Notes under the pieces: model-generated
What the model saw: only the letters and a program-made list of their open reading frames with translations
Databases searched by the model: none
What the model was told of the DNA's origin: nothing
Source of the DNA: Deltaproteobacteria bacterium
GTDB taxonomy: Bacteria; Desulfobacterota; Binatia; HRBIN30; JACQVA1
DNA length: 64,000 nt
Assembly (NCBI GenBank): GCA_016210005.1
Contig: JACQVA010000262.1
Coordinates: 1 to 64,000 of the forward strand
Direction: 5' to 3'
Program-made: the position numbers and the translations under genes
Shown here: positions 52,116 to 64,000 of the stretch, in pieces
Layout of the letters: each line of letters opens with the position of its first letter
How positions within the stretch are numbered: position 1 is the stretch's first letter

Positions 52116-54152
52116 TCAATTCAACCCCAGCGCCTTCATCGCCGCCATGAGCGGATCTCCGTAGAAGATCGGGTCTACTCGCTCCATGATGTCGGCCGAC
52201 ACTTCGAGAAAATGGCGCTTGTTCTCAATCGGGATCAGGGCACGTCGAGCCCCGTTCTCCATGCCGATTTGAAGCGCCTCGGACAACGAACGCACGGGCT
52301 TCAAGTTGCCTTGAATGCTGAGGTCGCCCAGTACGACCAGGGCGGGCAAGCCTGAATGCTTCTTGAGCGCCGAATGGATGGCGACCACCAGCGCGATCCC
52401 CGCATCGCACGAGACGCGGTTCGTGAGCAGGTCGATCGCCTCGACGTGGAAGTCCGTGACATCGAAGGCTTGCGCAATGCCCATGTTCACTTTGTGCCCT
52501 TGAATGTATGCGAACGCCCGCTGGATGGCCTCCTTCATCGTGCTGTCCAAGCCACCGGCCACCTTGAGCTTGCCGGTGCCCGGTGAGCAGCCCACCTCGA
52601 TGCGATACAAGCCCACCTTGCCTTGGTCATCCACCGAGGCCGCGTACACCGACCCCGGCGCCAGCGGATCACTGGAAATCAGCCCCCGGCCACCCTCTTC
52701 CGGCACACCGACGTAACGCTCCTCCCGGGTCTCGTTGTCGATGTACGAGAATGAGGTCTGGTGGTACTCGAAGGAGCCCATCTTCTTGAGCTGTTCTTTC
52801 ACGCGGCGCCGGCCTTCGAGCGCGATCTCCAGCAGCTCCGCCAGCTCCTCCTTCTGCACCTCGCCATCCGGGTGAAGCAGCTTGGCCAAACCCGCGACCG
52901 TCTTTCGCACGGCCTTCACGTCGCGGGCGTTCAGATGAGCGCCGAGCGAGAAGTGATGGTCCGTAATCTCGGCGAAGTTGTGCCGTCGCAGCTCGCGCAA
53001 CGCCTCGGCCAGGTAGTCGACGATGAACCCGTAGTGGTCAGTGAAGAACTCGATCCGCATCTTCGGCACCTCCCAACCCGGGAGGTAGAAGTGAATGCGG
53101 TCGAGGAAGGCCATGTCTTCCCGAATCACATCGGGCATCGGCAGGAAGAGGTGCGACGATCGCACCATCACCTCGACCGGCTGATTCGTGTTGCCGAACA
53201 TGGCGACTGACGCGATGCCCGAGAGCGCCTCCTTGCCCCGGGCGAAGGTGCCGGACTCGCAGTACGTCTTCAGCGTTGTCACCACCTCCTTGGGCATTTT
53301 CTGAAGGTCGGCCACTTCGTCGAAGGCCACCGCATCCCACAAACCGACCAGCCCCATCTTCCCGCTCGCCATGTTGTAGAAGAGGTTGGCGACGGTCGTT
53401 GGCCCCGTGAGCAGGATCACGTACGGACTCAGCTCCTGGTACGCATACGATTTGCCGGTTCCTCGCGGACCAAGCTCCACCAAGTTGAAGTTCGCCTCGC
53501 ACAACGGAATCAGCCGAGTCAGGAAGAGTAGCTTGAGCCGCCGGCTGAAGTGCGACGGCTCCAGCCCGATGCTGCGGATCAGGAGATCGATCCATTCGTC
53601 GGCGCGGAACTCCCGGCGCCGCTGCCGGTAATCGTCGAGATCAAACGTTCCGAGCTGGATCGGCTTCAGGTCATCGATCCAGAACGGGCTCCGCTTCCCC
53701 TTCGCCTCTTCGTCGTACTCGTGGCGCAGGTTCACCTGCGCCCAGATGCCACCCATGAGCAGCCGGTCGTACTCGCGGACATACCGCTCGGGAATGTGCA
53801 CGTGCTTGTGCCCGAAGTTGACGAACTCGGCCCAGTATTTGTCGTCGTCGGAGAGATACCGGACCTTCACCTTGTCGATCAGCGTGTGCCGGCCCTTCTC
53901 CCGCACGAACGATTGCGCTTTGTTCGCCTCGTCCGGCCGCACGAAGTTTTCGGCGATCGTGCTGTTGACGAGCCGGAGCCCCGCCTCGATGGCCTGCTGA
54001 TCGTCAGTGGCGCAGTACTTCCCGAGGAGATACTCCAGCACGAACACCGGCACATTGGCGCCGACCTTGACCTTGCGGACGAGATCCTTCCGCACGACAC
54101 GGCCGCCGAAGACGTCGTTGGCCTTCCGATCCAGGTCTGCGCGTTCAGTCAT
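52116..54152 (-). CDS. brxL: BREX protein BrxL (AAA+ / Lon-like)
   Basis: 678 residues. An N-terminal DNA-binding region precedes the AAA+ core with Walker A ELGPRGTGKSYAYQE (about 227-241), Walker B AVAFDEVADLQKM and sensor FGNTNQP. The C-terminal Lon-like domain (about 490-678) reads VSCDAGIAL where Lon has GPSAG, and PVRSLSEAL where Lon has GGIKEK, so both residues of the Ser-Lys dyad are replaced. BrxL is required for phage defence in type 1 BREX and is thought to act as a DNA-bound ring. GGAGACGAGGG precedes ATG 54152. Confidence 0.94.
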   Translation of the reverse strand: MTERADLDRKANDVFGGRVVRKDLVRKVKVGANVPVFVLEYLLGKYCATDDQQAIEAGLRLVNSTIAENFVRPDEANKAQSFVREKGRHTLIDKVKVRYLSDDDKYWAEFVNFGHKHVHIPERYVREYDRLLMGGIWAQVNLRHEYDEEAKGKRSPFWIDDLKPIQLGTFDLDDYRQRRREFRADEWIDLLIRSIGLEPSHFSRRLKLLFLTRLIPLCEANFNLVELGPRGTGKSYAYQELSPYVILLTGPTTVANLFYNMASGKMGLVGLWDAVAFDEVADLQKMPKEVVTTLKTYCESGTFARGKEALSGIASVAMFGNTNQPVEVMVRSSHLFLPMPDVIREDMAFLDRIHFYLPGWEVPKMRIEFFTDHYGFIVDYLAEALRELRRHNFAEITDHHFSLGAHLNARDVKAVRKTVAGLAKLLHPDGEVQKEELAELLEIALEGRRRVKEQLKKMGSFEYHQTSFSYIDNETREERYVGVPEEGGRGLISSDPLAPGSVYAASVDDQGKVGLYRIEVGCSPGTGKLKVAGGLDSTMKEAIQRAFAYIQGHKVNMGIAQAFDVTDFHVEAIDLLTNRVSCDAGIALVVAIHSALKKHSGLPALVVLGDLSIQGNLKPVRSLSEALQIGMENGARRALIPIENKRHFLEVSADIMERVDPIFYGDPLMAAMKALGLN

Positions 54153-54163
54153 GCCCTCGTCTC

Positions 54164-56773
54164 CTAGATCCCGATCGCCACTTCTACATCGTCCAGCCGC
54201 TTCAGTTCCACCTGTGAGGCGGCATCCAGGATGTGGACGGAGACGATCTTCATGTCGGCGTCGGCGGGCAACATGAGCGTGATGGCATTCGGCTTGTCCT
54301 TTCGGAGGACGATTTCCTGCGTGCCGTCCTCGAACCCATATCCTGCCATCACCGCCGACCCGATGTCCTTCTTGTTGGCGCGTACCACGGCTTTCACCCG
54401 TTTTTCCTCAGCCCCGAAGAACTCGGTCAGCGAGTAGGTCGCCGTCACCGAGAAGAACCGAGTTGCGATCCGGGGACGTTCCATCGTCAAGGCGATCACG
54501 GCCTGGCCCGCCGGAACGGCATCGCGCTTCGCCTTCACCACGGCAACCGGAATGATCAACTCCTGCAGGGAGGCAGCACCGTGGAAGAACGATTCCGAGC
54601 CGCCCGCCTTGAAGCACGCCAGGCTGCGGGGCAAGGCCAACTCAAGGTCGCCGCCCAGCCCCACCCGGCTCGCTGGCACGCGCACAAATCCGTCAGCACT
54701 GCTTCCGCCCTTCCCAATCCAGACGCGTCGATGCAGATCGGCGGTATCGCCACCGGGTGGATCGATCTTCATTCCACTTTCGATCGCCTCGCCAAACAGA
54801 TGGCCATGGTCCGCGGTGATCACCACGTCGGTCACGTCAAGAGACGCCAGTCTGCGCACGCCTTTGCGCAGCTTGTCGAGCACTTCGTCCATGTACCGGC
54901 GCGCCTCGTCTTCGTCCTCGGCACTCTCGCCGCGGCGGTCGATTTCTTGTGAGGTCACCAACACGAAGTCAGCCGCGCTGATTTCATCGCGCAGCTTCTT
55001 CGACGGTTTGATGAGCTCGTTGAGCTTCACATCGACCACCTTGCCGCCGACGCGGTCCCGCAAATGCTTCACCCGACCGGCTCGGTCCTTGAGGATGTTC
55101 CCGCCGATCTTCAAGGCGACCTTGCCAGCACCTGCTTCGACCAACTCCGCGCCATGGTCGGCCCCGGGCAGCAGAGCCGACATCCCGACCTCCGTGATCG
55201 TCGGAAGCTGGGCGATGCCGGGGATGAGCTTGACCTCAAGCTCATCCCCAAGCCCGTCAACGAACTCGCGCCCCATTTCGAATCGCATCGCGTCGACCCA
55301 AATGTAGGCTGGTTTCCCCTTCGATTCCTTTCCCGATTTCGTGAGGGGCGCGACGAGGTTCGGAAAGATCTTCTCCTGATGCAGTACGTCCGCGACCGAG
55401 AAGTCGGCGGCGTCCAGCGCTGCAGTGAAGGCTTCGGCGCAGAGCGCGACGGCGTCCATGTATTGCTGCCGCGCGCGGTGGATGACCTGCTCGATGAGGT
55501 CGTGCTCACCACCGATCTCCAGATCGAAGATCGCGAACTGACGCTCCAAATGCCGGTGGTAGGTATCGAGCAGGCACCACGGTTCCGAGCCCGCAACGTA
55601 TGCCTTCACAAACGCTGCAGGTGTCTTCGCCACGTTCTTCAGCTCCGCTTTGAGTCGGGCCGCAGTGAGAATCACGAGCGCAGCCGTCTCGATGAGCGAC
55701 CAGCGCAGCTGGTTCGTTGGCTCTTCCGTGGACCAAAATGAACGCTTGCGTTGCTCGGCCAGATCGCGTGCGCGCTCCGGAGTCCCGTCAAACACGGTCT
55801 GCTCGGCGTGGCGCAGCAACTTCTCCTCGACCGACGGGAATGTTTCGATGCCGGCCAAGCATTGCGCCTCAAGGTTCAAACTGCCGATTGCGACCTCAGC
55901 ATCAACCTCGCGAGCGGCAGCGACGTATGCCTCTCGGTAGTCAGAGCGGCGACGCCACGTCTGACACACCTTCGTGGCCATCGCCATGTGGTGGTCGCGC
56001 GCAGGCAACCCAGCGGATTCGAACTCCGGCACCGTTCCGCCGCGAGCACGCACTGCGGCAACGAACTCGCTCAGCAGCAAGACCCTTCGCAGGGCGTGGC
56101 GTGCGGCAGTGATGGAGCCGTTGGCATCAACCGCGACGCCGAGTTCGGATGCAAGCAGGAGTGCGATTTCCGGGAGGGCCTGCTTCGACGCAGTGGCTGC
56201 GTCGTGCTTCTCGGATGCGGCGAACATCAGCGCGACATCTTCCACCGATGCGGTGCCGAAGATCAGCTTCACAGCCCCCGATCCGACTGCCGCCGATTGT
56301 TCGGCAAGGCGGTCCAGATCTTCGAGCGTGAGGATGCCCTGCTCGACTTGTCGAGCGACGTCGCCGGCGCGGTCTGGCGCGAGGTCCTTGAACACCCGCT
56401 CTGCGATGACTTTCAGGCGTGTGTTGCGCTGCCACGGGTTGGCGCCGGGCTCGATCACGTGGCCCGCGCTCTCCGCTTCGATCAGGGCGTAGTGCGTCTC
56501 GCGGCGATCCATCGGCATGTAGACGAGCACATGCGGCGGCACGGTGCGTTCCGGTCGCGGATGGCCATCGGTATCGACAAATTCGAGTAGCGGCTCGAGC
56601 TGGGCGCGCAGCTCGAAAAAGCTGCCACAAAATCGGATGACAGTCGCGTCCGGCACGGTGATCTGCTCAGCGACGTGCACGTAGGAGCGTTCCGGGTCGT
56701 ACCAGACTACGATGCCGGCGTCGTGCACCTGTTTGGTGACCAAGGAAACGACCGCGTCAGCGACTCTGCCCAT
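54164..56773 (-). CDS. pglZ: BREX protein PglZ
   Basis: 869 residues. Alkaline-phosphatase-fold core: YIWVDAMRFEMG (about residue 491) with the first metal Asp, LPTITEVGMSALLPG with the Thr at the nucleophile position, and VVITADHGHLFGE (about 653) with Asp-His metal ligands. An N-terminal Toprim-like region and a long helical insert complete the BREX type. It forms a core with BrxB and PglX in BREX. ATG 56773 is used; the longer frame to 56842 would overlap the VapC gene. Confidence 0.93.
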   Translation of the reverse strand: MGRVADAVVSLVTKQVHDAGIVVWYDPERSYVHVAEQITVPDATVIRFCGSFFELRAQLEPLLEFVDTDGHPRPERTVPPHVLVYMPMDRRETHYALIEAESAGHVIEPGANPWQRNTRLKVIAERVFKDLAPDRAGDVARQVEQGILTLEDLDRLAEQSAAVGSGAVKLIFGTASVEDVALMFAASEKHDAATASKQALPEIALLLASELGVAVDANGSITAARHALRRVLLLSEFVAAVRARGGTVPEFESAGLPARDHHMAMATKVCQTWRRRSDYREAYVAAAREVDAEVAIGSLNLEAQCLAGIETFPSVEEKLLRHAEQTVFDGTPERARDLAEQRKRSFWSTEEPTNQLRWSLIETAALVILTAARLKAELKNVAKTPAAFVKAYVAGSEPWCLLDTYHRHLERQFAIFDLEIGGEHDLIEQVIHRARQQYMDAVALCAEAFTAALDAADFSVADVLHQEKIFPNLVAPLTKSGKESKGKPAYIWVDAMRFEMGREFVDGLGDELEVKLIPGIAQLPTITEVGMSALLPGADHGAELVEAGAGKVALKIGGNILKDRAGRVKHLRDRVGGKVVDVKLNELIKPSKKLRDEISAADFVLVTSQEIDRRGESAEDEDEARRYMDEVLDKLRKGVRRLASLDVTDVVITADHGHLFGEAIESGMKIDPPGGDTADLHRRVWIGKGGSSADGFVRVPASRVGLGGDLELALPRSLACFKAGGSESFFHGAASLQELIIPVAVVKAKRDAVPAGQAVIALTMERPRIATRFFSVTATYSLTEFFGAEEKRVKAVVRANKKDIGSAVMAGYGFEDGTQEIVLRKDKPNAITLMLPADADMKIVSVHILDAASQVELKRLDDVEVAIGI

Positions 56774-56805
56774 GGGAGGAACGAGATCTCTGAAGAGTGT
56801 TTGTC

Positions 56806-57216
56806 TCAGGGTACGACTATTTCCACCTTCGCCTCGGCGCACCGCTGTAGCGTGGTGTCTCCTGTCAGGAAGACATCGGTCCCGTCATCGATGGCGGTCG
56901 CGAGGTGAATAGCATCGGGAGTCTTGAACCCGTATTTGGCCCGCAGTTCGGTGGCCTGGTCGATCACGGCCGGCGTCAACTCGGCGAGCACGAGACGGCG
57001 CGCGGAGAAGAACTTATCGTATCTTGCGAGCAGCCCCGTGTCCTTGTCTCGCAGCGGCCGCACGCGGCATTCCAGGCGCGATAGTTGGGACGTTACAATG
57101 CGAGCGCTCCGGTCCTTGCCGTGCTGCTTGAGCCGCGCCAGCACGGCTGCATGAAACGGGTTCGCCGCTTCAATGAGGTAGATGATGCAACACGCGTCGA
57201 GGTACAGGCGGCTCAT
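56806..57216 (-). CDS. vapC: VapC-type PIN toxin within the BREX locus
   Basis: 136 residues, complete PIN domain: Asp in LYLDACCIIYLIE, Glu in LSRLECRV, Asp in KTPDAIHLATA and Asp in FLTGDTTLQR. An RNase toxin by family. It overlaps the preceding antitoxin gene by four bases, the usual vapBC layout, and ends 32 bases before pglZ. It is not part of standard type 1 BREX. Confidence 0.9.
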   Translation of the reverse strand: MSRLYLDACCIIYLIEAANPFHAAVLARLKQHGKDRSARIVTSQLSRLECRVRPLRDKDTGLLARYDKFFSARRLVLAELTPAVIDQATELRAKYGFKTPDAIHLATAIDDGTDVFLTGDTTLQRCAEAKVEIVVP

Positions 57217-57452
57217 CGATCCCCCCAGGACTCCCGCTCCTCCTGGATCTGGCGATCGATCTCCTGCTTTGTTCGCGTGCCCGGCGGTAGGGTCGCAATG
57301 TACTCGAAGACGTCGGGTTGCGTCTTTCGCCGAGATTTCCCAACGGCCCGGATTGCAACCTCGACAGGGCCTTTCAGCTCCCTGACCGGCTCTTCCAACT
57401 CAATGTGCCGCGCGTCGGAGAATCTACCCCGGACGACAATTGCCCTTTTCAT
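57213..57452 (-). CDS. Probable antitoxin of the VapC gene
   Basis: 79 residues: MKRAIVVRGRFSDARHIELEEP, a short beta-type N terminus, and a basic and acidic C-terminal helix (KQEIDRQIQEERESW) that should wrap the toxin. Similar small proteins precede PIN toxins. GGAGGAGC precedes ATG 57452. It overlaps DUF433 upstream and VapC downstream by four bases each, forming one translational unit. Confidence 0.75.
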   Translation of the reverse strand: MKRAIVVRGRFSDARHIELEEPVRELKGPVEVAIRAVGKSRRKTQPDVFEYIATLPPGTRTKQEIDRQIQEERESWGDR

Positions 57453-57763
57453 CTGCTCCTCCAATTCCCGCACCCGCTGGTGCGTCGATCTTGTAGCCGC
57501 ACACGACCCTCGGTGTTTTCGTCAATCTCGCGGTCAATCACGGCCTGGTGATCGTAGTAGTACGACAAGGCGTCATGTACCTGGGCGAGCGTCAGGTGCT
57601 CGAACTCTTTGACCACCTCCTCCGGGGACATGCCCTGCCGGAGGACGTAGTTCACCACCGAGCGAACCGGGAACTTCGTCCCTGCAATAATTGGACTGCC
57701 GCCGCAGTACCCCTTGCGGCTTTCAATGTAGGGGTGTTTCGCTTTCACTGCTGTTCGTGCCAT
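57449..57763 (-). CDS. DUF433 protein (antitoxin-like)
   Basis: 104 residues. Typical DUF433 core: GGSPIIAGTKFPVRSVVNYVLRQGMSPEEVVKEFEHLTLAQVHDALSYYYDH split over a small helix-turn-helix. DUF433 proteins usually act as antitoxins for DUF5615 PIN-like toxins. Here no DUF5615 is seen and the next genes are an AbrB-like antitoxin and VapC, a mixed arrangement. ATG 57763. Confidence 0.85.
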   Translation of the reverse strand: MARTAVKAKHPYIESRKGYCGGSPIIAGTKFPVRSVVNYVLRQGMSPEEVVKEFEHLTLAQVHDALSYYYDHQAVIDREIDENTEGRVRLQDRRTSGCGNWRSR

Positions 57764-57767
57764 TGAT

Positions 57768-57803
57768 CTAGCCTCCAGTCTCCAGCCTCTAGCCTCCCGC
57801 CAC
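57768..57803. repeat. Heptamer array A1
   Basis: On the minus strand: GAGGCTA, GAGGCTG, GAGACTG, GAGGCTA, four exact 7-base units in a row. The stop codon of the pglX C-terminal part (TAG) lies inside the array, so the end of that protein is set by it. Confidence 0.85.
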
Positions 57804-59753
57804 AAGACCCTTCTCTCGCAACCGCTTGGACATCGTGCTCCACTCGTACTTGCCCTCGCACAGTTCGTCCCAGTACTGCTTGGCGACCTTCCAGGGGGTG
57901 ATCTCGTAGAAGGGGGCGATGTTGAGGACGACGCCGTCGTTGAGGTCGGGATCGTAGCCGAGCGCGGCGACGCGTTCGAGGGCTTCCTTGAACGCCGTCA
58001 GCTCGGTGAGCAGGGCTTCCTGCTTGTCGATGGCCTTCTCGCGCTTGGTCCGCTGCGATTGCGGCAGCCAGTCCTTGCCCTGTTCGAGGCCGTCGGTCAT
58101 TTCGCGCAGGCGGGTGGTCTCGCCGTTGATCTTCGGCAGCACGTAGTTGCGCAGTGCCTTGAAGACCGTGTCGCGGTCGAGGCGGTGGTAGTAGAGCCAC
58201 AGGCCGTACGAGCACTTCGACGACTGCAGCAACCAATAGATCGGCGCTTTGCGCCGGCTCTTGGAGTAGCGCCTGATGTGGTCGGTGAAGAACCCGTTCG
58301 GATAGCGCAAGTAGTCGCGCAGGTCCTTCGCGCGGAGGATTTCGCATGCCTCCTTCTCGATGGCGTCGTGGCGGTCGCCGAAAAGGAGTTCGAGCACCTC
58401 GCGCACCCGGCGGACGATGTCGTCGGCGTGGAGGCTGTTGCCGTCCGGGCCGGGATCGTCGACCAGAATGCCGTCCCAATCGATTCGGACGGGATACCCC
58501 GGCGGCGCCTCACGCGCCGGCAGGCCGTCGGAGCCGGTCAGCATGCCGGGCAAGCACACAGGTAGGGGTGTAAACGGGTTGGGCGACTCAGTCGGTCGCG
58601 TCTCGCCCGTTGCAACACGGAGATTCCACCGGCCAAACACGCAGCCGAGAGCGTACGAGAGCAGATCCCTCGTCAGCGAGGGCCGATCAAGAGCGAAGGC
58701 TTCGCTTGCATCTCCCTCTTCGGATCCGGCTGGCGCACCGTCGGCAACGTCGACGGCCGCTGACTGCCGACCGAGAATCACAGACCTGATTGCGTCCCGC
58801 TCGTCGTCGGCGATGCCGTAGGCGTCGAATGCAATCTCGTCTATTCTCGCTTGAATCTCCCGAAGCCGGTTGCCGTTGCACTCGATCCGCCTTGAAAAGC
58901 GCGTGGCGCGGTCAGCAATGCTGCGCCCCGTCTCGGCTACAACCGATGGCGAGAGATAAGCGTGAGATATCTCATCGGATCGGTACGGAAGGCGGTTGCG
59001 CGCACATCCTTCTTCCGCAAGACGCCTCAATTCATCGGCGGCTGCGCTTCCAAGCTCAGGGATCGGCACTTGCTGAATCAACCCGGCCTCGTACTGAACC
59101 CCACCCACCTTGCCCGCGAATACGCGAAGCAGGTAGTCGAACATCGCGGAGTTGAACAGGCCAAGAAACGTAAGCAGCTCGGCGACGTCGCGCGCGAACG
59201 CCATCTTGCCTGCGTTGCTGAAGATGCAGCCCTCCGGAACCGCTTGCGCGGAGAAGACGATGCCTCGTAGTGGCCAGGTGAGGCCGGGCCGGAAGTAGAA
59301 TGACTCGGCCTGCACCTTACGACTTGCACTTCCAACCTTGCATTCAACGAAACGCTTGAGTTCCAGTCCGCTCTCCTCCCAGTACACGACGGCTGGAACG
59401 GCTCCAAAGAAGCGCGAGAATTGGCCTCCACTGACAAGCGGGTACCAGCTCTTGCGCATTCGCTCTGGCGCGCACTCCCACCAGCATCGTAGAAAGCGGA
59501 AGTCGTCGAGCGTACCGAGCCCCACCTTTGCCGTTCGCCCCTCTCCTTCGTACGGCTGCAATTCCACAAACAGTCGCCTGACGCGGTCGCTCACCCAATA
59601 CGCGAAAGGCGAGCCTGGGATCTGTCGAAACGAGTCGGGTTCGGCTGCGTGAACAACGGTGTCCATCGCGTGCCCGACGCGAGTGGTGTCTACGACGGCA
59701 CGCAGCCCCGCGCCCTTGTCATCGGCAGAGAGGAGTCGGAAGAAGAGGGCCAT
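57789..59753 (-). CDS. pglX: BREX methyltransferase PglX, C-terminal part
   Basis: 654 residues, second half of PglX. It starts ATG 59753, MALFFRLLSADDKGAG, and contains the target-recognition and helical parts: FAYWVSDRVRRLF, PLVSGGQFSRFFG, GLFNSAMFDYLLR, then DIVRRVREVLELLFGDR, PIYWLLQSSKCSYGLWLYYHRLD and AKQYWDELCEGKYEW, as at the C terminus of BREX-1 PglX. It has no SAM or NPPF motif. The N-terminal part is a separate gene at 60197-62749, and a cassette on the other strand lies between them. The two parts may work in trans; this is unproven. Confidence 0.88.
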   Translation of the reverse strand: MALFFRLLSADDKGAGLRAVVDTTRVGHAMDTVVHAAEPDSFRQIPGSPFAYWVSDRVRRLFVELQPYEGEGRTAKVGLGTLDDFRFLRCWWECAPERMRKSWYPLVSGGQFSRFFGAVPAVVYWEESGLELKRFVECKVGSASRKVQAESFYFRPGLTWPLRGIVFSAQAVPEGCIFSNAGKMAFARDVAELLTFLGLFNSAMFDYLLRVFAGKVGGVQYEAGLIQQVPIPELGSAAADELRRLAEEGCARNRLPYRSDEISHAYLSPSVVAETGRSIADRATRFSRRIECNGNRLREIQARIDEIAFDAYGIADDERDAIRSVILGRQSAAVDVADGAPAGSEEGDASEAFALDRPSLTRDLLSYALGCVFGRWNLRVATGETRPTESPNPFTPLPVCLPGMLTGSDGLPAREAPPGYPVRIDWDGILVDDPGPDGNSLHADDIVRRVREVLELLFGDRHDAIEKEACEILRAKDLRDYLRYPNGFFTDHIRRYSKSRRKAPIYWLLQSSKCSYGLWLYYHRLDRDTVFKALRNYVLPKINGETTRLREMTDGLEQGKDWLPQSQRTKREKAIDKQEALLTELTAFKEALERVAALGYDPDLNDGVVLNIAPFYEITPWKVAKQYWDELCEGKYEWSTMSKRLREKGLVAGG

Positions 59754-59756
59754 GGG

Positions 59757-59797
59757 AGGGGGCTGGCGGCTAGAGGCTGGAGGCTGGCGGCCGGGGG
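59757..59797. repeat. Heptamer array A2
   Basis: On the plus strand: GGGGCTG, GCGGCTA, GAGGCTG, GAGGCTG, GCGGCCG. It sits between the start of the pglX C-terminal part and the DUF4258 remnant, at one edge of the cassette that splits pglX. Confidence 0.85.
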
Positions 59798-59832
59798 AAG
59801 AGAGCGCCGTGAGCAGTGGCAGCGGGTTCGGG

Positions 59833-59931
59833 GCGTTCATCACGGAGCTGAGCCGGTACCTGCGAGTGGTCACCGAGGCAGACGGCGAGACGGTGCACAA
59901 CGCGTTTCTTGATCGCGGCTTCAAGCCGTGA
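59833..59931 (+). pseudogene. DUF4258-like toxin remnant (C-terminal end)
   Basis: A plus-strand frame ends with SRYLRVVTEADGETVHNAFLDRGFKP. This resembles the last beta strands of DUF4258 / RelE-like small toxins (RYLRVV ... DRxFKP). The first half of the domain is missing and the frame runs back into the heptamer array, so only about 32 codons survive. The DUF2283 gene follows 19 bases later, the usual partner in DUF4258-DUF2283 pairs. Confidence 0.45.
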
Positions 59932-59950
59932 GAGAAAAGGGGTGACGGTC

Positions 59951-60196
59951 ATGATCTTCCAATACCATGCCGATAGCGACATGCTGTACCTCAAGCTCGC
60001 TGAGGGTGTCAGCACCGAGTCGGAAGAGGTGGCGCCGGGTATCGTGCTCGACTTCGACGAGCACAACCGCGTGATCGGCATCGAGATCGAAGACGCCAGC
60101 AAGTCTGCCGATCTCTCCCGCCTGGAAGTATTGGCCCTGCCGCTCACGGACCTAGTCCTCGGCGAGAAACGCCCCGCACCGGCTACTGACCACTGA
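59951..60196 (+). CDS. DUF2283 protein
   Basis: 81 residues on the plus strand, against the BREX genes. Core YHADSDMLYLKLAEGVSTESEEVAPGIVLDFDEHNRVIGIEIEDAS is split by the usual turn; this is a complete DUF2283 domain, an antitoxin-like family often paired with DUF4258. AAAGGGGTGAC lies before ATG 59951. It sits in the insert that separates the two pglX parts, and its stop abuts the pglX N-terminal stop. Confidence 0.9.
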   Translation: MIFQYHADSDMLYLKLAEGVSTESEEVAPGIVLDFDEHNRVIGIEIEDASKSADLSRLEVLALPLTDLVLGEKRPAPATDH

Positions 60197-60217
60197 TCAC
60201 GGCTCACTGACACCTGC
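60182..60217. repeat. Heptamer array A3
   Basis: On the plus strand: CTACTGA, CCACTGA, TCACGGC, TCACTGA, CACCTGC. It covers the last codons of both DUF2283 and the pglX N-terminal part, and marks the second edge of the cassette. Confidence 0.75.
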
Positions 60218-62749
60218 CTCCTTCGCCAAGCAGTATGCGGCGGTCTCGACCATCGCGGTGTCGAGGACGCCTTGGCCCAGGTCGGCGACGACCGTCGGCC
60301 GTGCTTCCTTGAGCAAGATCTCCTCACGCCACTTCTGGAACGAGGAGAGGAAGAAGCCGGTCCGCGAGGTGATCGCACCGAGCATGCCACCGGTGTGCAG
60401 CCACCCCACGCCGCGCTCGACGAAGGCCGCGTAGACGTCGTTCTTGGTTCGCGGGTAGGTCTTCTCGATGTACGCCTTGGACGGCTTGCTGGCCTCACCG
60501 AACGGTGGATTCATGAGCACGACCTCGAACTGCTGGCGACACACGTCGATGAAGGCGAAGCCGCGCTCGGCGTCGTCGGCGAACAGCCGCCGCAGGAAAC
60601 CCTTGCCATTCGCTGCTCCGCTCGCATACCGATGCAGCTCCGCGATCACGCGCTCGTCCGCATCGTCCCAAAACTTCTTGTCGGTGATACCCGAGAGGTC
60701 GAAGAGCACCATCTGCTCGGCCTTGCGCCGCTCTGGCTCCGGAAACAATGCGAGCTGTTCCTTCTTCGGCCGTTTCAGCCATTGCTGCTTCGCGCGCGCG
60801 ATGTCGTCGCGCACCTCCTCTTCGATCTTGAGCAGGGAACCGGCTTCGCCTGCCAGTTTCATCGAGTCGAAGACGCGGCGAACCAAGTCACCCAAGAGCT
60901 TCGGTTCCAAGCCAGCGGTGAACTCTTCCAGCAATTCGCGTTCACCGGGCATCGGCTCGGCGCACGCGATGTTCGAGCGTGTGATCCGCGGCCGCTCGGC
61001 GACCTTCAGGCCCAGACGCTGAAACGATCGCTGCGCCCGCAGCCACAACGCCAGCGCCGCGATCTGTGTGGCACGCAGGTCGATGTCGATGCCGTGCAGG
61101 TTGTGCTGCAGGACCAACGCCGGCAACGCACGGCGGAGCGACTCCAGCGTTGGGTAGGCGGTAGGCAGAGGGCAGAAGGCAGAATTCGAGTAGTCGTACC
61201 CTATCTCCTGGAGATCGCGTTCATAAGCCCTTTGATCAACCTGCCAACTTCCGCAGCTGATGCGAGGAGTGTCTCCGCCTGTTCCCGCGTTAAGTACTTC
61301 AGCCGCTGGGCAATCATGGCTTGCGTCTCCACCTCGCGAACCGAACCGTGCGCGATCGAGAGGAAGTTCACGAACTCCTTGGCCGACGACCGGCCCTGGC
61401 CCTCTGCGATGTTCGATGGAATCGACACCGCCGCGCGGCGGATCTGCGATGTCAGCGCGAACTGTTCCTCTTTCGGAAAGCTCCGTGTCGCCTGATACAC
61501 CAGCTCCACGAGATCCATCGCCTTCTGCCAGCCGATGAGATCCCTGTAATTCTGTCCCGCCATCACTTCCTCCCTCTGCCATCAGCCCACTGCCTACTGC
61601 TTCCTCCGCTGCCTTCAGCCTACTGCCTACCGCATACTGCTCTTCCCAGCACTCTTCGTAGATGGTCTCGAGGACATCGAAGCCGTACAGGAGGAAGTGG
61701 GCGCTGCCGCACGCTGGGTCGAGCAGCTTCAGGTCGCGTGGGTCCTTCTTCGGGCGATGATGGACGTAGATTGACGCCACCGTCCCATCGCCCCTCCCAT
61801 TGGTACCCTCACCCTCGCCCTCTCCCGCGGGTGATGCGGGAGAGGGGATTTCTCCGCTGCCGTCTGCCGTCTGCCTACTGCCTACTTTTTCCCCGCCCGC
61901 GTCGAGGAAGACCTCGTTCGGTTGGTACACGAGGTAACGGCAGGTCTCCTTGAGGCGCGTGCTACGCCGCTGCATCTCGAACCAGATGCGGCCGAGGGTG
62001 TTGTCGACCAAGAACTGGACGACGTACCGCGGCGTGTAGAACTGGTTGCGGAACGCTAGCTCGTAGGAGTTCCGCGGTGCGCTACTTTCCTTGCGCGCTT
62101 TGTCGCGCAGCTCCTTGGGGGTGAAGTATTGGTAGATCCAGCCGATCGTCTCGTCCTCATCCCACACGGCGGCAATGGCGTCACCGTTCAGAATGTCGAG
62201 CACCTGCTTCACGCACGCATCCGACGGAAAGATGATCGACTGCGGTAGGTGCCGCTCGAAGAGTACGCCCAGCTCGGTTGCCAGATCGTCGAAGAGGCAT
62301 TCCAGGTAGAGCCGATAGCCGCCATCGAGAACGCCGCCGTTCTTCGCCGCTCGGCATGCTTCCGGGCTTACCTTCTGGAAGAGCAGGAAGCCCTTCGATT
62401 CCTTGCCGTGGCCGACCGAGTCGGGAATCAGCTCGCGGCTGTCGTGCTCCATCAGCTTCAGCGCCGCCAGTCGGTTGAGATGCGTGAACGCGGTCTCGCG
62501 GACGAATTGCTCGACGGCATCCTTGCGCGCGATGCCGAAGCTCTCGATGTGGCCGATCGCGTCGATGATGCTGGCGCGCAAGACGGGCACCGTCTCGTCG
62601 CCATACGGTGCAAACTCCTCAGCGACAAGGAACTGCCCCTTGGGAGTCACCCCGTATCGGCCCTCAAGTTGCCCGCGGACATCTTCCTCCAGCGCCTGGC
62701 GGCAGGCGACGACGGCGGAGCGGAGGGCGTTGCGGAGGGACTTATCCAC
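60197..62749 (-). CDS. pglX: BREX methyltransferase PglX, N-terminal part
   Basis: 850 residues from GTG 62749 (GGGGGGAAG upstream). N-terminal helical region; then NQFYTPRYVVQFLVDNTLGRIW; SAM motif LLDPACGSAHFLLYGFDV (about 343); catalytic VVLMNPPFGEAS (about 746). It should methylate adenine in the BREX site. Two foreign segments keep the frame open. One near residues 285-325 is made of a palindrome and a heptamer array. The other, between motif I and HNLHGIDID, holds a complete S23 gene read in another frame. The protein stops after SMVET-like AMVETAAYCLAKEAG at array A3, so the target-recognition half is missing. Confidence 0.9.
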   Translation of the reverse strand: MDKSLRNALRSAVVACRQALEEDVRGQLEGRYGVTPKGQFLVAEEFAPYGDETVPVLRASIIDAIGHIESFGIARKDAVEQFVRETAFTHLNRLAALKLMEHDSRELIPDSVGHGKESKGFLLFQKVSPEACRAAKNGGVLDGGYRLYLECLFDDLATELGVLFERHLPQSIIFPSDACVKQVLDILNGDAIAAVWDEDETIGWIYQYFTPKELRDKARKESSAPRNSYELAFRNQFYTPRYVVQFLVDNTLGRIWFEMQRRSTRLKETCRYLVYQPNEVFLDAGGEKVGSRQTADGSGEIPSPASPAGEGEGEGTNGRGDGTVASIYVHHRPKKDPRDLKLLDPACGSAHFLLYGFDVLETIYEECWEEQYAVGSRLKAAEEAVGSGLMAEGGSDGGTELQGSHRLAEGDGSRGAGVSGDTELSERGTVRADIADPPRGGVDSIEHRRGPGPVVGQGVRELPLDRARFGSRGGDASHDCPAAEVLNAGTGGDTPRISCGSWQVDQRAYERDLQEIGYDYSNSAFCPLPTAYPTLESLRRALPALVLQHNLHGIDIDLRATQIAALALWLRAQRSFQRLGLKVAERPRITRSNIACAEPMPGERELLEEFTAGLEPKLLGDLVRRVFDSMKLAGEAGSLLKIEEEVRDDIARAKQQWLKRPKKEQLALFPEPERRKAEQMVLFDLSGITDKKFWDDADERVIAELHRYASGAANGKGFLRRLFADDAERGFAFIDVCRQQFEVVLMNPPFGEASKPSKAYIEKTYPRTKNDVYAAFVERGVGWLHTGGMLGAITSRTGFFLSSFQKWREEILLKEARPTVVADLGQGVLDTAMVETAAYCLAKEAGVSEP
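61152..61186. repeat. Heptamer array A4
   Basis: On the plus strand: GGGTAGG, CGGTAGG, CAGAGGG, CAGAAGG, CAGAATT. It lies at the 3' edge of the S23 insert in pglX. Confidence 0.8.
61201..61563 (-). CDS. S23 / four-helix-bundle protein nested in pglX
   Basis: 120 residues. Classic S23 family (23S rRNA intervening-sequence protein): YRDLIGWQKAMDLVELVYQ, FPKEEQFALTSQIRRAAVSIPSNIAEGQGR and EFVNFLSIAHGSVREVETQ, split over four helices. It has its own ribosome site (GGAGGAAG) and ATG 61563. It is coded on the same strand as pglX but in another frame, and is bordered by heptamer arrays A4 and A5. Function unknown; relatives occur inside rRNA genes and other genes as inserted units. Confidence 0.92.
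   Translation of the reverse strand: MAGQNYRDLIGWQKAMDLVELVYQATRSFPKEEQFALTSQIRRAAVSIPSNIAEGQGRSSAKEFVNFLSIAHGSVREVETQAMIAQRLKYLTREQAETLLASAAEVGRLIKGLMNAISRR
61572..61641. repeat. Heptamer array A5
   Basis: On the minus strand: GCAGTAT, GCGGTAG, GCAGTAG, GCTGAAG, GCAGCGG, a 5-base slip, then GCAGTAG, GCAGTGG, GCTGATG, GCAGAGG. It is the longest array, at the 5' edge of the S23 insert, translated within pglX. Confidence 0.85.
61818..61846. repeat. REP-like palindrome inside pglX
   Basis: Perfect 11-base arms CCCTCTCCCGC and GCGGGAGAGGG with a 7-base loop, translated within pglX as a Pro/Gly/Glu-rich stretch (PSPASPAGEGEGEG). Same family as 19945-19965. Confidence 0.8.
61852..61889. repeat. 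Heptamer array A6
   Basis: On the minus strand: GCAGTAG, GCAGACG, GCAGACG, GCAGCGG after a leading GTAG. It stands next to the palindrome at 61818 and no gene is carried between them, as if it were an empty or collapsed cassette. Confidence 0.8.
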
Positions 62750-63197
62750 GCTTCCCCCCGTCCTGACCCTTTCGACTTGGCTCGGGACAGGCTTCCTCAG
62801 CAAGGAGGAAAGGATCATCGCCGCCGGTCCGCCTTCCTCCCCCCTTGCGGGGGAGGATTGAGGTGGGGGGTGCCTGACTCAGAGCCGCGCAAATCGCCGC
62901 GATAACACCGTCGTGGTTTCGCAAGACCTCGTTGTTCCAAAATCTGAGCACTCGAAATCCCTGCGACTCCAACCATGCCGTTCGTTGGGCGTCGCGACCC
63001 GCCTGCTCCGCATGTTGGGCGCCGTCGACTTCCACAATCAGGCGCCTTTCCAAACAGGCGAAATCTGCGACGTAGGGCCCGAGTGGCTGCTGCCGCCGAA
63101 ACTTGTGGCCGTGGAGTTGGCGCAGCCGGAGGTAACGCCACAACGTGCGCTCAGCTTCCGTAGGGTTCTTCCGCAGCAGCCGTGCCGTGCTGGCCAT
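62742..63197 (-). CDS. DUF559 endonuclease-like protein
   Basis: 151 residues. DUF559 (Vsr/MTES-like) nuclease fold: RLLRKNPTEAERTLWRYLR, HKFRRQQPLGPYVADFAC, LIVEVDGAQHAEQAGRDAQRTAWL, FRVLRFWNNEVL; the Asp/Glu residues of VADF and VEVDG fit a PD-(D/E)xK site. The C-terminal tail (PTSILPRKGGGRRTGG) is coded by a palindromic repeat. It is inserted between brxC and pglX, overlapping the pglX start by eight bases. ATG 63197. Confidence 0.88.
   Translation of the reverse strand: MASTARLLRKNPTEAERTLWRYLRLRQLHGHKFRRQQPLGPYVADFACLERRLIVEVDGAQHAEQAGRDAQRTAWLESQGFRVLRFWNNEVLRNHDGVIAAICAALSQAPPTSILPRKGGGRRTGGDDPFLLAEEACPEPSRKGQDGGKRG
62836..62856. repeat. Palindrome in the DUF559 3' end
   Basis: Arms CCTCCCCC and GGGGGAGG with a 5-base loop, coding the Gly-rich tail of the DUF559 protein. 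Confidence 0.7.
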
Positions 63198-63215
63198 GCC
63201 TACCCCCCATCCTAA

Positions 63216-63238
63216 CCTTCCCCCGCAAGGGGGGAAGG
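63216..63238. repeat. Palindrome upstream of DUF559
   Basis: Arms CCTTCCCCC and GGGGGAAGG with a GCAAG loop, 19 bases upstream of the DUF559 start codon. With the copy at 62836 it brackets the gene. Confidence 0.75.
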
Positions 63239-63276
63239 AACTTCGCGTTGAGGCCGCCGCTCGCGATGCCCCACGA

Positions 63277-63299
63277 CCTTCCCCCGCAAGGCGGAAGGA
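63277..63299. repeat. Second, imperfect palindrome upstream of DUF559
   Basis: CCTTCCCCCGCAAGGCGGAAGG, a variant of the 63216 palindrome with one mismatched pair, in the 176-base gap between brxC and DUF559. No gene is visible in this gap. Confidence 0.65.
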
Positions 63300-63340
63300 A
63301 CCGTAGAGCAAGCTGTTGCGGAGTTACAAATCACCGTGTT

Positions 63341-63379
63341 GACCTCCCAGCCTGCAGTCTCTAGCCTCCAGCCTCATTC
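63341..63379. repeat. Heptamer array A7
   Basis: On the minus strand: GAGGCTG, GAGGCTA, GAGACTG, CAGGCTG. The brxC stop codon (TGA) is formed at its first unit, as the stop of the pglX C-terminal part is at array A1. Confidence 0.85.
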
Positions 63380-64000
63380 CAAAACGATCCGCACGCCCTC
63401 GGCCAGCAGCTTCAGCAGGTGCTCCTTGAGCCGCTCGATGCCGGCCTCCACGTCTGCTGGGCTTTCAAGCCGACTGCCGAGAAATGCGGCCAACCGCACC
63501 CGCTCAACCCGCTGGTTCGGTGCGGCCATGCTTGCAAGCACCTGCAGGGCCGCGCCGCTCAGTCCTGCCACGGCGGCCATGTCGGCTTCGATCTCGTTGA
63601 GCGAGCTGCGGCAGGTGCTGCATGCCGGATTGCTGGCAGCGAGGCTCAGCTCCGCACATGATCGGCGCTGTAACGGTGCCAAGATGCCATCTTTTTGGGC
63701 CTGCGGAATGCTCGGGTCTGCCGCAACTGTCGCCCAGTCGGGTTGCCCCTTGATCTCCTCGATCGCCGTGGCGAACAACGTTGCCCGCTCCGTGTGCGCC
63801 GCTTCGTACAGACGACGGTGCTCGGCCTCGATAGCGGCGGCTGCCTGCCGCATCGCTTCGACTGCTTCGAAGAAGTTGGGGGATTGCAGGTTCTCTTGCA
63901 GCTCCTTGGCGCGGTCGACGAGGGCGCCTTCGCCGGTGCGAACCTGAACCGCCGGCCACTGCTCGTCCAAAACCGACCGGGCAGCGCGAATGATGTTGAG
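63374..64000 (-). CDS. brxC: BREX protein BrxC, C-terminal end (partial)
   Basis: 208 residues, open to the window edge. Only the helical C-terminal region of BrxC is seen: VRTGEGALVDRAKELQENLQ, FEAVEAMRQAAAAIEAEHRRLYEAAH, and a closing LKEHLLKLLAEGVRIVLE. The identification rests on this pattern and on position directly upstream of pglX, as in type 1 BREX, where BrxC is a large DUF499-like ATPase. The stop codon falls in heptamer array A7. Confidence 0.8.
   Translation of the reverse strand, partial: LNIIRAARSVLDEQWPAVQVRTGEGALVDRAKELQENLQSPNFFEAVEAMRQAAAAIEAEHRRLYEAAHTERATLFATAIEEIKGQPDWATVAADPSIPQAQKDGILAPLQRRSCAELSLAASNPACSTCRSSLNEIEADMAAVAGLSGAALQVLASMAAPNQRVERVRLAAFLGSRLESPADVEAGIERLKEHLLKLLAEGVRIVLE

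Follow-up and report, generated by a model that had tools for sequence, protein, structure and literature searches.

S23 genes framed by inverted heptamer arrays, one of them within an open pglX frame, as candidate mobile elements of protein-coding genes

What becomes of a phage-defence methyltransferase gene when a second gene lies inside it in another frame? The question is raised by a 64,000-nucleotide stretch of DNA from a Deltaproteobacteria bacterium of the class Binatia (contig JACQVA010000262.1, positions 1 to 64,000, assembly GCA_016210005.1; hereafter the window), in which pglX, the methyltransferase gene of a bacteriophage exclusion (BREX) system, encloses a gene for an S23 four-helix-bundle protein. 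To our knowledge, S23 proteins are a long-standing puzzle, familiar from inserts in rRNA genes and of no established function. The initial annotation, made from the sequence alone, had likened the insert to those rRNA inserts and had offered three outcomes for the host: a tolerated loop, removal by RNA splicing or an inactive PglX. Our analysis suggests, with a probability of roughly 0.7, that a small mobile element lies here, equivalent in a protein gene to the S23-coding intervening sequences (IVS) of 23S rRNA genes, and that it would be read through as a disordered loop.

The S23 gene (61201..61566, minus strand, ATG at 61563) encodes 121 amino acids and has the same sense as pglX in a different frame. 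The N-terminal half of the split host gene, pglX-N (60197..62818, minus strand; 873 amino acids), runs without a stop across the ~490-bp insert, the host frame being +2 relative to S23, and the nested open reading frames (ORFs) are thus as first described. So is the separate start of S23, whose ATG is preceded by the Shine-Dalgarno-like GGGAGGAA (61568-61575), contained in a heptamer array (61566..61605, minus strand) that lies between the 5' arm described below and the S23 start. The product is a strong match to its family, beyond chance (PF05635, E=3e-41, 140 bits against a cut-off of 33.8; TIGR02436, 137 against 24; PDB 2GSC, E=2e-27).

In an alignment to an uninterrupted homologue (L109; L numbers denote loci and G numbers genomes), 67% identical downstream and 50% upstream, the insert falls between ..ETIYEECWEE and YPTLESLRRALP.., and the whole element (61152..61641, minus strand) agrees with the ~490 bases or ~160 residues first noted. 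At this position L109 has a loop of ~20 residues, which the insert replaces or expands. The segment is likewise absent from eight homologues on viral contigs (L244-L251) and from the solved BrxX structures, all of which have a short variable loop instead, so that at least ten PglX homologues are without it; the idea that it is a conserved PglX domain, which the initial annotation had named as the outcome that would overturn its proposal, is ruled out by these comparisons. When plasmid records were searched with the insert-bearing PglX, none of the 211 matches covered 80% of the query, and the best aligned in two pieces at no more than 80%, the pattern that proteins lacking the insert would give. 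An AlphaFold model of PglX-N built with nine sequences (mean predicted local distance difference test score 45; ~24 for insert residues 412-549) was too poor to bear on the loop.

The ends of the insert, which the initial annotation had missed, are inverted arrays of 7-bp repeats. The 5' arm, upstream of S23 in the transcript, is the heptamer array GTATGCGGTAGGCAGTAGGCTGAAGGCAG (61609..61637, minus strand; period ~7), and the 3' arm is the inverted array downstream (61154..61182, minus strand); they are 86% complementary, score 19 against a control median of 8 and pair in the minimum free energy (MFE) RNA fold predicted for the segment (z=-3.2). Also missed was an S23-free heptamer array in another variable loop of pglX (61849..61886, minus strand), which lies in frame, is 90% complementary to 61154-61182 and adjoins a G+C-rich palindrome, CTCTCCCGCgggtgatGCGGGAGAG (61818..61846), likewise in frame and absent from homologues.

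Such arms are common around S23 genes. We surveyed 220 of these from a species-wide collection and the window's phylum, 217 of them with enough flank, and found inverted arms (score >=14) in 167 (77%), from many phyla, compared with 2.3% when the left flank of one element was set against the right flank of another and 0.6% in 861 random windows of the same loci. The best arm period was 7 in 134 of the 167 and 8 in 20, the 5' arm is G-rich and C-poor, and the median element length is 468 bp. The repeat unit varies among elements while left and right arms match within each. No single sequence is therefore conserved in the arms, which are part of the element, though free to change in sequence. 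Similarity of the unit tracks identity of the S23 protein (r=0.26; best of 200 permutations 0.04). In the window's genome the other full-length, high-scoring S23 genes (L002, L003, L004) are also armed, with other units, GAGAAGT-like in two and the 8-bp AGACGCGG in the third.

Comparison of related elements points to movement of the whole unit. In four pairs (L140/L127, L144/L123, L218/L142, L003/L002) similarity extends to within ~10 bases of the outer arm edges and then stops. L140 and L127 are 94% identical over 486 bp and have the same gene flanks in opposite orientation, the flanks of the other pairs are unrelated, and L002 and L003 are two copies in defence genes that neighbour each other in the window's genome. 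Within one genus, G040 carries an S23 element between two convergent genes, G109 carries it there the other way round, and G138, G165 and G076 have no S23 at this site but a mini-hairpin built from the element's heptamer, ATCGTAAATCGT-ACTT-ACGAGTAACG. Short arm-like copies lacking S23 are scattered in these genomes, with up to 72 matches in one. Shared sequence up to the arm edges at unrelated sites, together with the S23-free mini-hairpins, suggests that the unit is mobile. Because the mini-hairpin occurs in three genomes and the element in opposite orientations in two others, the evidence favours the mini-hairpin as a landing site rather than a footprint, though the two orientations could also stem from an inversion between the arms. 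One and the same loop of a type III methylase is occupied in L176 by an S23 element and in L027 by a solo heptamer hairpin, SVVSGQHSATDNRKLTTDNS; L027 holds several further in-frame solo arrays.

Eleven S23 elements lie inside genes, mostly those of defence methylases and helicases: pglX (the window and L117), the HmaA helicase (L002), the HmaB DUF1156 methylase (L003), another helicase (L190), type III methylases (L027, L176 and a remnant in L222), a type IIG-like methylase (L041), error-prone DnaE (L011) and leucyl-tRNA synthetase (LeuRS), normally an essential gene (L025, Treponema, 45% GC). All eleven are in the sense orientation and stop-free in +2 over S23, compared with 10 of 85 other elements of similar GC (P=4e-9). 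A T before a codon starting with AA, AG or GA, which would make a stop, occurs in none of 73 cases in the in-gene elements and in 267 of 950 elsewhere. The chance of a stop-free +2 frame in the Treponema LeuRS element is ~6e-6, and the other low-GC in-gene elements (L117, L176) are likewise +2-open. Eight of the eleven are in phase with the host.

Most elements sit between co-transcribed genes, directly behind a stop codon. In 124 of 158 cases the gene upstream points the same way, and of 117 elements about two thirds start no more than ~20 nucleotides after that gene's stop codon. Three Alphaproteobacteria (L054, L061, L088) have elements in the nuoC-nuoD gap, and the repeat unit differs in all three. 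None of 20 S23 loci surveyed for this lay in rRNA, and in the window the host is pglX rather than an rRNA gene; Rfam gave no match to an intron, riboswitch or rRNA in 56-64 kb. The usual home of S23 thus appears to be operons and occasionally the interiors of protein genes, not rRNA. At L115 and L014 the S23 frame continues open from the upstream coding sequence, giving potential fusions of the upstream protein with S23.

The neighbourhood of the window's insert is that of a type 1 BREX system, with PglX profile matches, N6-methyltransferase motifs and pglZ, brxL and brxC as neighbours. pglX-N matches BREX-1 PglX models (PADLOC, 5e-250; NCBIfam, 5e-119, under the cut-off set for the full-length protein, which a half is expected to miss). 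All on the minus strand, brxC (63374..64000, E=6e-12) runs off the window with its 3' end inside, and pglX-N is followed by pglX-C (57789..59924, likely ATG at 59753; PADLOC PglX, E=7e-142), pglZ (54164..56842) and brxL (52116..54152), the last two identified by profile matches. pglX-N, pglX-C, pglZ and brxL are all open. PglX and the BREX gene set look intact because the two-gene form is natural in this clade: PglX is split into two adjacent or overlapping ORFs in L244, L246, L247, L248 and L110, the N part ending ..VETAAYxLE.. and the C part starting ..FLRLL... We had considered truncation of pglX by a DUF2283 cassette, and dropped it on the natural two-ORF layout of L244 and L246-L248.

The DUF2283 gene itself (59909-60196, plus strand) lies within 59750-60220, antisense between pglX-N and pglX-C, flanked by the heptamer-like repeats CAGTGGTCAGTAGCC (near 60180-60215) and GGCTGGAGGCTGGC (59761-59791). 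Another one-gene cassette with inverted ends, a DUF559 gene (62742-63311, minus strand), stands between brxC and pglX-N and is framed by inverted 34-nt G+C-rich repeats (62838-62871 / 63202-63235). Between pglX-C and pglZ are DUF433 and PIN-domain genes resembling a toxin-antitoxin pair (56806-57805, minus strand), adjoined by a 7-bp array (57770-57801) whose orientation is opposite to that of 59761-59791. The BREX operon therefore holds at least four small cassettes.

How such an insert might be accommodated can be outlined as follows. The element would consist of two inverted 7-bp repeat arrays as its ends and one S23 gene inside. The ribosome would read straight across it to yield a PglX with a ~160-residue loop, rich in Gly, Asp and Arg, at a naturally variable position, while S23 would be translated from a separate start on the mRNA that it shares with pglX, a case of dual coding. 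The arms may pair in the transcript or in single-stranded DNA, and the element could spread via the small same-repeat hairpins scattered in genomes, which would be usable as landing sites. S23, as a relative of the Avd protein of diversity-generating retroelements (DGRs), might help by binding the hairpin nucleic acid, a guess for which the ground is its Avd-like family match. Read-through, any processing of the RNA and a part for S23 in mobility are what we infer from these sequence comparisons.

Read-through is preferred because the +2 frame is open and in phase, whereas cutting would break the mRNA, and of the three outcomes first offered the tolerated loop is the best supported, on the sense orientation, open +2 frame and prevailing phase of the in-gene elements. 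RNase III might instead cut the segment out at the arm stem with no religation, leaving fragments of PglX or none and making the element a negative regulator. The predicted pairing of the arms in the transcript agrees with this and excision without ligation is established for the rRNA IVS (PMC4990558), yet such cutting needs neither an open nor an in-phase host frame, and the frame is open in all eleven hosts and in phase in eight, LeuRS included; we regard it as unlikely, while partial cleavage of the transcript is possible, given the paired arms. True splicing, with excision and ligation, would account for tolerance in large genes and in LeuRS. It gives no reason for the openness and phase of the +2 frame, precise splicing having no need of phase; the lack of an Rfam match in 56-64 kb speaks against any known intron family, and no splicing is known for S23 IVS, where the fragments stay unligated (PMC4990558). 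The splicing outcome accordingly fares worst, and we consider it very improbable.

That the insertion inactivated PglX, the open frame being a chance product of high G+C, is also improbable. The element is indeed 59% G+C, and L041, L117 and L222 are out of phase, but the +1 frame of the same element has nine stops, the +2 frame is seldom open in other elements, the low-GC in-gene elements have it open as well, and all BREX ORFs in view are open, the split being natural. A further proposal, compatible with read-through of the insert, is that the heptamer hairpins are themselves mobile or expanding and S23 is a captured passenger. The many S23-free solo arrays and mini-hairpins, among them the one in the window's pglX, fit this, whereas the unit sequence follows the S23 clade and armed S23 forms a single coherent unit across many phyla; we think it a doubtful proposal, if less so than cleavage or inactivation.

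Several points tell against our preferred reading of a mobile element read through as a loop. Since it was mostly a spanning frame that brought the in-gene cases to notice, ascertainment inflates the open-frame statistics and makes them partly circular; only L117 (by PADLOC homology) and L041 were placed by two-sided homology without an in-phase spanning frame, and both are +2-open. The three out-of-phase elements mean that not all hosts are readable. The contig of L025 ends 19 nucleotides past the element, so that its right flank is barely seen, the window's arms are imperfectly complementary and the window comes from a draft assembly of 268 contigs. Finally, no empty copy of the window's pglX was found in a close relative, and this insertion event is thus undatable.

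The likeness to 23S rRNA inserts drawn at the outset proves apt, and the inverted arms make it concrete. In Coxiella the 23S rRNA IVS has a sense S23 ORF, complementary ends and heptamers (GACAGAT), and is excised by RNase III without ligation (PMC4990558). With the S23-coding IVS of Coxiella, Leptospira and Brucella the elements share the sense S23 ORF, a length of ~430-490 bp, complementary stem ends and 5'-side heptamers, and the window element likewise has complementary ends enclosing a sense S23. Unlike those IVS, the present elements reside in protein genes or intercistronic gaps, their unit varies widely, and the frame has to remain readable where in rRNA the transcript is cut: the cut pieces of rRNA hold together, whereas cutting would destroy an mRNA. 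For tolerated loops the closest parallel is the Rickettsia palindromic elements (RPE), which stand beside other bacterial miniature inverted-repeat transposable elements fused in frame and are stem-loop mobile DNAs of 105-146 bp tolerated in frame in protein genes (PMC2229807). The window element resembles them in keeping the host frame open and differs in its greater length, in its own gene in another frame, of which the RPE account describes none (PMC2229807), and in its flanking 7-bp arrays, which are not described for RPE.

Homology between S23 and Avd has been remarked (PMC10053308). Against DGR Avd models S23 gave E=2e-10 with NF033474, its score of 40.7 falling below the cut-off of 80, and E=1e-10 with bAvd. 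No template/variable repeat was seen beside the element, and no reverse transcriptase was found among the window ORFs read, a search confined to these rather than genome-wide. REPIN/RAYT systems also combine a gene-bearing unit with many dispersed, gene-less hairpins of matching sequence. RAYT, however, is a transposase-like enzyme, whereas S23 is a four-helix bundle with no catalytic motif known to us, and the unit of the S23 element is a heptamer array. Cyanobacterial heptamer short tandemly repeated repetitive sequences (STRR) are 7-bp tandem repeats dispersed in genomes; we know of none that form inverted arms of S23 genes. In the open literature, subscription papers lying outside the search, no account of S23 elements in protein genes was found, and this widespread style of insertion is apparently undescribed.

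S23 insertion in pglX has also left its mark on a reference model, a separate line of evidence for the +2 reading. Translated in the pglX frame, the insert alone matches positions 274-385 of the PADLOC PglX profile PDLC02522 (E=4e-14), and the window's S-adenosylmethionine motif maps to position 419 onward, so that the profile contains a +2-read S23 element, in a loop that precedes the motif and does not follow it; the read-through span, ~positions 270-413, is a mobile element built into a defence-gene model. G253 (L117) has a pglX with S23 in this pre-motif loop, and G263, G089, G382 and G103 have the same PglX without S23. The different loop and the absence from four relatives mark an independent insertion, and S23 has thus entered pglX at least twice, in two loops. 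Annotators should be aware that a defence-gene profile has taken in a +2-frame translation of S23 as though it belonged to PglX.

More broadly, and tentatively, as we would put the odds at less than even, S23 elements may be a large class of mobile DNA that has been overlooked, coding in two frames and homing into cognate hairpins of 7-bp repeats, their +2 frame shaped within genes as a benign host linker. A 7-bp unit is not a whole number of codons, so a gain or loss of repeats could turn the host gene, in many cases one for a defence methylase or helicase, on and off. Sites free of S23 can still hold a matching mini-hairpin, and the function of S23 would become a testable question of hairpin-targeted mobility.
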